DNA of 50,692 bases from Gammaproteobacteria bacterium (lineage in GTDB: Bacteria > Pseudomonadota > Gammaproteobacteria > Poriferisulfidales > Poriferisulfidaceae), in assembly GCA_028819565.1 (NCBI GenBank), contig JAPPLD010000011.1, forward strand, positions 1 through 50,692, given 5' to 3'. The notes under the pieces were generated by a model. It worked only from the letters and a program-made list of their open reading frames with translations. It was not told the origin of the DNA and did no database searches. This document shows, one piece after another, positions 11,694 through 13,642 of this stretch (position 1 is its first letter; each line of letters begins with the position of its first letter). Position numbers and translations under genes: made by a program.

Positions 11694-11728
11694 ATCCTCT
11701 CCTGATCCACACCTAATTCCCCAAGCCA

Positions 11729-11768
11729 GACTTTAAATCAGTCGGCAATTTTAATTTAAACTAGTCGG
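11729..11768. repeat. two phased copies of a 23-bp repeat (upstream group)
   Basis: The core TTTAAA-NNN-GTCGG occurs at 11732-11745 and again at 11755-11768, exactly 23 bp apart. The same unit recurs three times just before the downstream ATPase gene. The intervening region 11769-11950 is AT-rich with no gene seen. Confidence 0.8.
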
Positions 11769-11951
11769 GAAGGATTTCTTTGATATTCATCATGCAGTCC
11801 AGAACTTAGGCATATCTGAGGTGAAATATATAATGCCATTGTTAAACAGGTAGTTAGAATAGTTCTATTCCCGGCATAATTCCAGCAAATAAATCCTTTT
11901 TCCTATACGGGAAATTTGTTCAGATTCTCCATTAAAGCGAAAATCTTCCGG

Positions 11952-12017
11952 CTTAACTTTAAATTAGCCAATGTCTTAACTTTAAATTGGTCGGGTGTTA
12001 TACTTTGAATTGGTCAG
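11952..12017. repeat. three phased copies of the 23-bp repeat upstream of the DUF4143 ATPase
   Basis: Units with cores at 11958, 11981 and 12004 (TTTAAATTAGCCAA, TTTAAATTGGTCGG, TTTGAATTGGTCAG) are each 23 bp apart, the flanks CTTAAC or TTATAC being kept too. The last copy ends 31 bp before the ATPase ATG. Spacing of 23 bp is close to two helical turns, as in iterons or operator arrays, so a protein could bind all copies on nearly one face. Confidence 0.85.
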
Positions 12018-12048
12018 GTTTCTTGTTTCAAATCCCCTGATTTACACA

Positions 12049-13266
12049 ATGTACCCCCGATTCGCCGAAAATCACATCCGCAAGACCATGGAATACTCCC
12101 GGGTCACGCTGGTATGCGGTCCCCGGCAATCTGGAAAAACGACATTGGTGAAGAAGATCGCTGGTCAATCCATTCCTTTCATCAACCTGGACGACGAGGT
12201 CATGCTCAAGTCCGCATCCAGGGACCCGACCGGCCAGATCCAGAGCCTTGATCGCGCGGTCATTGACGAAATTCAACGCGTACCCGAACTCATCCTCGCC
12301 ATCAAGGTGGCCGTAGATACAAACCCCAGCCCGGGCCGCTTCCTTCTGACTGGATCCGCAGACATCCTGACACTTCCGCGCGTCGCGGACTCTCTTGCTG
12401 GGCGGATGAGAACATTTCGGCTGCTACCCCTGTCCCAAGCCGAGTTGAAGGGAAAACCCTCCTCTTTCCTAGATCAGGTATTTTCCGGAATCGCTCCCAA
12501 ATCGAATTCACCTGCAGTCGGCAATGAACTGCTTCAGGCAATTCTCGCCGGTGGTTATCCAGAAGCGATTACTCTCTCGAACGGACAACGCCAAAACTGG
12601 CATCTGGACTATTCGGAAACCATCCTTCAACGCGACGTTAAAAGCCTTGCTCAAATTGAGCAACTGCACATGATGCCGCGTCTCTTTCGCCTGCTCGCCG
12701 AATATTCCGGACAGCTCGCCAATTATTCCAAGCTGGGAGCCACCCTTGGCATGAACTCTGTCACGACCCAAAAATATGTGGGGATTCTCGAGAGCATGTT
12801 CCTCGTATACGCCCTGCGGCCTTGGTACACCAATACCCTCAAGCGCTTGGTCAAAACCCCCAAACTGCATTTCCTAGACTCCGGCCTGCTGGCTTCATTG
12901 AAGCGCATCACTGCTGAATCTCTTCGCCGGGACCGGTCGCCGCTCGGTCCTGTGCTCGAAACCTTTGTGCTCAGCGAATTGCTGAAACTGGCCAGTTGGG
13001 CAGATGACCGATACGAATTCTGGCATTTTCGAGACAAGGAAAAAAACGAGGTGGACATCGTCATGGAAAACGGACAGGGACAGGTCGTCGGTATTGAGGT
13101 CAAGGCCGCCGCTACCGTCGCCCACAAGGACTTCGCAGGCCTGCGCCGCCTAGCCGCCGATTGCGGCGACCGGTTTACCCTAGGTCTGGTCCTGTACGAT
13201 CACCGATACACCCTGCCGTTCGGCGATCGAATGTATGCTGCGCCCGTCTCGATGCTGTGGGAGTAA
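12049..13266 (+). CDS. AAA_14/DUF4143-family ATPase
   Basis: This 405-residue protein has an N-terminal P-loop ATPase domain: Walker A GPRQSGKT (24-31), Walker B in AVIDEIQRVPEL, and SADILTLPRVADSLAGR. The C-terminal DUF4143 domain has a PD-(D/E)xK-nuclease-like pattern (NEVDIVMENG then GIEVKAA). The family is widespread and its function is not established; roles in stress or mobile-element maintenance have been suggested. I chose ATG 12049 because the upstream GTG at 11995 lies within the 23-bp repeats. No partner gene adjoins it. Confidence 0.9.
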   Translation: MYPRFAENHIRKTMEYSRVTLVCGPRQSGKTTLVKKIAGQSIPFINLDDEVMLKSASRDPTGQIQSLDRAVIDEIQRVPELILAIKVAVDTNPSPGRFLLTGSADILTLPRVADSLAGRMRTFRLLPLSQAELKGKPSSFLDQVFSGIAPKSNSPAVGNELLQAILAGGYPEAITLSNGQRQNWHLDYSETILQRDVKSLAQIEQLHMMPRLFRLLAEYSGQLANYSKLGATLGMNSVTTQKYVGILESMFLVYALRPWYTNTLKRLVKTPKLHFLDSGLLASLKRITAESLRRDRSPLGPVLETFVLSELLKLASWADDRYEFWHFRDKEKNEVDIVMENGQGQVVGIEVKAAATVAHKDFAGLRRLAADCGDRFTLGLVLYDHRYTLPFGDRMYAAPVSMLWE

Positions 13267-13303
13267 ACTTCTCAGGCAAGGACTCAGGACTGCGGCCGGG
13301 TTA

Positions 13304-13642
13304 TCAGTAGCCTCCCTTGCGGCGGCTCTCGGGTAACCCAGAGATGCGCCCTCCCTGCTTGCTCGGGTCCCCGGGAAACAGGTCGTAGAGAGTTTTGGCA
13401 TTGATCTTCTCGTTCCACAGCTTGCTAAAGTGTTTTACCAAATTGCGGGTGTTCGGCTGGTTTCCGGCATTCTGGAAAAACTCCTCCCGAAGATGCTTGA
13501 TGACATCCCAGTGCCGTTGCGTCAGTTCCAGGTCCTCCGAATTCGCGATGTGCTCGGCCAAGCCTTCGCTCCAATCGTCCGCATTGACCAGGTAACCGTT
13601 CGGCGTAGTCTCAACTGTCTTTCCGTCAAATTCAATGCTCAT
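13304..13642 (-). CDS. DsrC/TusE-family paralogue lacking the redox cysteines (RspA-type)
   Basis: This 112-residue protein aligns end to end with the DsrC encoded at 18726-19058: the same start (FDGKTVETTPNGYLVN), the HWDVIKHLREEFFQ helix, and the YDLFPGDPSKQGGRISGLP C-terminal arm. Both arm cysteines of DsrC are replaced, the inner by Gly and the outer lost in SRRKGGY. The protein thus cannot carry persulfide sulfur the way DsrC and TusE do. Cysteine-less members have been named RspA and proposed to be regulatory. It has its own minus-strand start, 1.5 kb before the dsr operon, between an ATPase gene and higBA. A regulatory role is inference. Confidence 0.85.
   Translation of the reverse strand: MSIEFDGKTVETTPNGYLVNADDWSEGLAEHIANSEDLELTQRHWDVIKHLREEFFQNAGNQPNTRNLVKHFSKLWNEKINAKTLYDLFPGDPSKQGGRISGLPESRRKGGY

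Follow-up and report, generated by a model that had tools for sequence, protein, structure and literature searches.

Structure of the locus

The window (the whole stretch of 50,692 nucleotides analysed here) contains a gene for an AAA_14-DUF4143 ATPase (P0001), preceded by a five-unit array in which a pair and a triplet of 14-mers are each set at 23-bp steps, the last 14-mer ending 31 bases before the ATG (Table 1). The number of units, their spacing, and the gap to the start codon agree with the original prediction, in which every unit was also said to carry a common core, TTTAAANNNGTCGG; an exact match to this core is found in only three of the five units, with two mismatches in the unit at 12004 and a weaker match in the unit at 11958. 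Taken alone at up to two mismatches, the core occurs at chance level (6 matches in the window versus a mean of 9.28 in shuffled sequences), and the case is therefore built on the spacing and on the relatives. The exact core has three copies in the 1.80-Mb genome, all in this array (reversed control, 1), and the two-unit 23-bp pattern at up to three mismatches has five, four at this locus and one stray with three mismatches (control, 0). Within this genome, the array is confined to this locus.

Table 1 Features of the array, the ATPase gene, and the cassette, in window coordinates
Feature	Position	Strand	Basis
Cassette (array and gene), gained or lost as a whole between ilvD and the gene that follows	11703..13303	+	blastn versus congeners
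Unit 1, TTTAAATCAGTCGG	11732..11745	+	Core scan of the window
Unit 2, TTTAAACTAGTCGG	11755..11768	+	23 bp from unit 1
Unit 3, TTTAAATTAGCCAA, degenerate	11958..11971	+	Position matrix; genome pattern scan
Candidate -35, TTAACT	11976..11981	+	Consensus match only; unit 4 lies in the 17-bp spacer
Unit 4, TTTAAATTGGTCGG	11981..11994	+	23 bp from unit 3
Candidate -10, TATACT	11999..12004	+	Consensus match only
Unit 5, TTTGAATTGGTCAG	12004..12017	+	23 bp from unit 4
Possible weak unit 6, TTTCAAATCCCCTG	12026..12039	+	22 bp from unit 5; 3 mismatches; uncertain
AAA_14-DUF4143 ATPase P0001, 405 aa, PADLOC PDC-S01	12049..13266	+	Pfam and PADLOC profiles
Codons for N236-S237-V238, probable specificity residues at the start of the recognition helix	12754..12762	+	Covariation, model, and held-out loci
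PD-(D/E)xK-like motif, E334, D336 ... E350-V-K352	13048..13104	+	Conservation; strands in the model; putative nuclease

Array and gene together form an autonomous cassette. The blastn alignments to L183, L184, and L185 stop at window positions 11696–11702 and resume at 13304; in three congeners (G001, G002, and G004), ilvD is followed directly by the gene at window position 13304, with neither array nor ATPase, a fourth congener (G003) has both at this site, and a fifth (G005) is truncated. The cassette contains the array and the gene only, and no transposase was found in it by an ORF and Pfam profile check. Among 387 flanking ORFs examined, no family recurs, the largest cluster consisting of 4 ORFs in 4 loci. 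Plasmids are also among the carriers (225 records at E 1e-40). The 1.8-Mb genome G000 contains 14 stretches matched to DUF4143 ATPases of different subfamilies.

P0001 matches AAA_14 (PF13173; 86.7 bits; cut-off, 27) and DUF4143 (PF13635; 156.1 bits; cut-off, 28.1), and its full length (residues 1–405) matches the PADLOC profile PDLC04790 (PDC-S01; 549.3 bits). The Pfam search gave these two families only and no Rep family, the NCBIfam search gave no match, and the PHROGs search gave weak partial matches only. In the AlphaFold model (mean pLDDT, 93.7; alignment of 79 sequences), an AAA+ core is followed by a winged helix and a C-terminal α/β domain. The winged helix is composed of three predicted helices (residues 206–218, 226–232, and 237–249) and two strands (residues 253–256 and 272–275), of which the helix of residues 237–249 is the recognition helix in the model and is preceded by residue 236. 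In the wing loop, a motif R-L-x-K-T-P-K (residues 266–272; window positions 12844–12864) is nearly invariant. The C-terminal domain is a putative PD-(D/E)xK nuclease: E334, D336, and K352 are invariant and E350 is found at 90% or more in the 79 sequences, and the strand order in the model fits this fold, in a region (beyond residue 321) for which the fold search gave hardly any coverage. The closest solved folds are the archaeal ATPases 2qen (Z-score, 15.4; rmsd, 4.8; 249 aligned residues) and 2fna (Z-score, 14.4; rmsd, 4.9; 250 aligned residues), both matched over residues 1–286; the matches in the fold search include Orc/Cdc6 and DnaA, and a sequence search of solved structures gave mostly P-loop matches, 2fna among them.

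Arrays in front of related genes

Relatives were collected as the best 80 of 557 loci from a scan of 84,980 genomes, together with 40 loci from related genomes, and the best self-alignment lag within the range of 12–45 was determined for 120 genes, those with sufficient sequence upstream. This lag was 22 in 40 and 23 in 30 of them; downstream of these DUF4143 genes, a lag of 22/23 was found in 7 of 117 (control). With the clade defined as the genes with a profile score above 430, the lag of 22/23 was obtained for 67 of 89 clade genes versus 3 of 31 distant DUF4143 genes. The 22/23-bp arrays are the rule in one DUF4143 clade, across many phyla; most distant DUF4143 genes have none, and the array is hence not a property of the entire Pfam family. 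Enrichment in front of DUF4143 genes in relatives, the absence of which had been set beforehand as refuting, is thus found, and the claim of a repeat array in front of such genes holds for the clade and fails for most distant genes.

Training a position matrix on the clade gave T-Y-Y-S-A-A-T-T-R-G-M-C-G-R. Chaining units with this matrix, with only steps of 21–24 bp allowed, gave 212 spacings, 126 of 22 bp, 80 of 23 bp, and 6 of 21 or 24 bp. A chain score of at least 20 was reached in front of 57 of 78 clade genes versus 3 of 499 other ORFs in those loci (of these three, two trace to a neighbouring second DUF4143 gene, that of L081, and the third to a run of N, in L065), and in 53 of 70 loci the best chain anywhere in the locus, both strands considered, was the one preceding the gene; since the matrix was trained on the clade itself, the controls carry the weight, not the absolute scores. 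The periodicity score used initially gave a high background in shuffled sequences and was retained only alongside the matrix chain and the downstream and other-ORF controls. The units are alike within a locus and unlike between loci, and the expectation of a conserved core did not hold: the literal TTTAAATTGGTCGG is not kept, and every subfamily has its own version.

The arrays vary in length. Many consist of 2–4 units only; those of L005 (G009:C84) and L083 run to about ten units, with steps of 23 and 22 bp, far beyond the need of simple repression. Two adjoining clade genes (L081:2133-5224) have one 22-bp array and one 23-bp array, with different codes. Units resembling TGG...CCA and ending at or near the ATG were noted by eye in a subclade (L091, L109, L119, L135, and L136), several members of which have the helix PQT, AHS, or AHT. 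Some distant DUF4143 genes with SGP or SQP helices (L148/L188, L153/L189, and L211) are preceded by 23-bp arrays of ACTTTRGATTATTCC or ACTTTGAAATTC, and one of these genes is carried by a Ruminococcus albus plasmid. In other distant DUF4143 genes, on viral contigs (L195, L194, L200, and L204), inspection by eye found no arrays and found inverted repeats around a -10-like TATAAT in the last 60 bases before the ATG, with a near-perfect palindrome ending at the ATG in L204, which suggests self-operators there too.

Covariation of residues 236–238 with unit positions 1–3

Covariation was calculated for 64 loci from 79 aligned rows, 15 with weak or single units having been left out (effective number, 24). 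The top four of the 5670 residue–base pairs are 236/position 1, 238/position 2, 237/position 3, and 238/position 1. Position 1 is C with D236 and mostly T with S236; position 2 is C with K238, mostly T with V238, and A with Q238; and position 3 is C with H237, mostly G with G237 or D237, and, with S237, either A (together with V238) or G. The window protein (NSV) is accompanied by TTTAAA, its nearest named relative (NHV; L041) by TTTCAA, the Rhizobiales SSV proteins (L055 and L062) by TTAAAA- or TTTAAA-like units, and a homologue with NHI (WP_042120035.1) on plasmid p42f of Rhizobium etli CFN 42 by 22-bp units with TTTCAA.

A held-out set was drawn from 34 clade genes with a score of 500 or more, from new genome and viral loci. 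Left out were 6 with >85% identity to a training protein, 7 with >85% identity to another test protein, and 4 (L171, L139, L135, and L136) for which the generic matrix found no array; in the remaining 17 loci, the arrays were located with a matrix blind at positions 1–3. Among 405 columns, 238 held the top rank for both position 1 and position 2, 237 led for position 3, and 236 came third for position 1, the 17 loci representing fewer than 17 independent cases because 5 of them share the SRQ code. Identical bases also recur between the two sets, TTAC being common to L076 (SRQ, Legionellaceae, training) and the SRQ test group, and TAAC to L085 (NRL, training) and L125 (DRL, test).

Relatedness was addressed with pairs among 81 loci, for which protein identity was computed without residues 236–238. 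At 50–60% identity, the mismatch at positions 1–3 was 0.27, 0.37, 0.60, and 0.85 for pairs with 0, 1, 2, and 3 of these residues differing (26, 195, 281, and 218 pairs, respectively), and the corresponding values at positions 4–12 were 0.36, 0.40, 0.47, and 0.44. The 238/position 2 effect was absent in the 60–70% and 70–90% identity bins (14 and 9 differing pairs). When changes were mapped on a FastTree tree also built without residues 236–238, co-change with position 3 was strongest for residue 237 (p, 1.2e-4, with 7 shared branches) and co-change with position 1 for residue 238 (p, 2.9e-4), with 236 fourth for position 1 and 238 weak for position 2 (rank 31); these p values fail correction for all pairs, and the argument therefore consists of the ranks and the held-out results. 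The covariation of residues 236–238 with unit positions 1–3, found on held-out loci as well, indicates that the DUF4143 protein most likely binds its own array. As a lead to a second contact, wing residue 268 and unit position 10 came out top in the tree co-change test (p, 2.5e-7), the same pair ranking 214 by covariation and 21 on the held-out loci.

Candidate promoter elements and proposed mode of action

Promoters across the clade loci were assessed as consensus matches only. In 26 of 84 clade loci, the -10 of the best promoter-like pair lies in the linker at offset 16–18, and fixed units with shuffled linkers gave a mean of 3.9 and a maximum of 9 over 50 runs. Promoter-like elements in phase within the arrays point to autoregulation, either repressing or activating, with repression as the simplest reading, and in many loci the bound protein would cover its own promoter. 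Self-regulation or DNA targeting had been proposed for the array; the residue–base covariation and the in-phase promoters support the first of these two forms, which, like the observation itself, now stands in a stronger and more general shape. A second candidate arrangement was rejected: a -10 inside the unit (offset 1; TACAAT in the last unit with a possible leaderless start at GACGATG), striking by eye, occurs in 22 loci versus 25.1 with shuffled linkers.

It is probable (~80%, in our estimate) that the array acts as an operator-promoter and that its reader is the protein encoded behind it. The array, its phasing, the covariation, and the cassette limits are observed, and binding, an oligomer, and repression are inferred in the following manner. 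The N-terminus of the recognition helix (residues 236–238) would dock on positions 1–3 of each unit, and a different part of the protein would contact the second half of the unit, which is more conserved and lies roughly one turn further on. Protomers lined up along the 22/23-bp repeats would lie over a promoter with both elements, -35 and -10, phased to the units, and the gene may in this way keep its own level low for as long as the protein stays on the array. The cassette of gene and array would travel as one self-contained piece carrying a DNA address of its own, by which several paralogues could coexist without cross-talk. Antiviral defence is the leading guess for the role of the ATPase and putative nuclease.

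The arrays of up to ten units count against this operator-promoter reading, exceeding what simple repression needs. They would suit an iteron- or centromere-like platform, on which the array nucleates an ATPase–nuclease filament serving mainly in copy control, maintenance, or cutting, with promoter control as a side effect. Such a platform would also accord with the direct repeats of 22/23 bp, the resemblance of the AAA+ and winged-helix parts to the initiators in the fold searches, and the plasmids among the carriers; we consider it rather unlikely in view of the chromosomal occurrence, the flanks with no recurrent family, and the many arrays of only 2–4 units with an embedded promoter. That the array serves a different, host-encoded regulator as its operator, with the covariation reflecting shared ancestry, is highly improbable, as the covarying residues are three neighbours at the end of the recognition helix that reads DNA, the signal persists in held-out loci and among pairs matched for protein identity, and the array types go with the gene across phyla and plasmids. 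The presence or absence of the cassette between the same genes in congeners could suggest units serving as transposon-end binding sites of a mobile element, and the ends of Tn7 also hold 22-bp sites; against this very improbable assignment stand the lack of 22/23-bp enrichment downstream (7/117), the position of the best whole-locus chain before the gene (53/70 loci), and a cassette without transposase. Transcribed upstream repeats that bind and hold the protein as RNA, in the manner of type III toxin–antitoxin systems, would likewise be direct repeats immediately 5′ of a putative nuclease gene, and are hardly credible here, the winged-helix residues tracking the bases and a promoter-like pair lying inside the array in many loci, so that some units would escape transcription.

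Comparison with known systems

The full-length match to PDLC04790 (549 bits) likens P0001 to PDC-S01, a PADLOC candidate for single-gene phage defence. According to the available text of PMC12988326, PDC-S01 ranks fourth in frequency among prokaryotic defence annotations (29,494 cases in bacteria and 9,986 in archaea). As for most such candidates, defence by this family awaits validation, and the available portions of the two reports concerned mention no promoter array or DNA code for it (PMC12988326, PMC13356809). RNA of the Thermus thermophilus DUF4143 gene TT_P0211 is given as 6.6-fold up with a plasmid, in an Argonaute-bearing strain, in the available text of PMC4406477. The literature searched yielded no account of how PDC-S01 works and none of 22/23-bp repeats with an AAA ATPase plus winged helix, and the search by Pfam names gave chance word matches only.

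Tentatively, the operator-promoter reading may be extended to PDC-S01/DUF4143 cassettes as self-addressed immune switches, in which an ATPase–nuclease assembly would sit on its own array through an orthogonal three-residue address, and invading DNA or infection would strip or titrate the protein, with expression going up and the nuclease assembly being freed. If this is true, the three residues would constitute a general DNA-recognition code for the PDC-S01/DUF4143 family. The array would be a concrete candidate substrate for PDC-S01 proteins, with a DNA site predictable from three residues, and offers a handle on what releases the protein.

The archaeal AAA ATPases of the 2qen/2fna (SSO1545) type are alike in the ATPase and winged helix (residues 1–286), whereas the C-terminal PD-(D/E)xK-like domain of P0001 and the arrays fall outside the match. 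Plasmid Rep iterons are direct repeats of ~22 bp that are read by a winged-helix protein encoded beside them, with autoregulation; the likeness lies in ~22-bp direct repeats beside the gene of a winged-helix protein, and the difference in the lack of a Rep-family match in P0001 and the chromosomal setting. C-protein boxes of restriction-modification systems and toxin–antitoxin operators belong to selfish cassettes, in which the small regulatory DNA varies with the regulator among relatives; here, reader, ATPase, and putative nuclease would be one protein, and the sites are long phased direct-repeat arrays. Self-binding operators are already known; what appears to be new, as far as the literature was searched, is a phased array whose reader would be an ATPase with a putative nuclease that uses a three-residue code, in a very common defence candidate.
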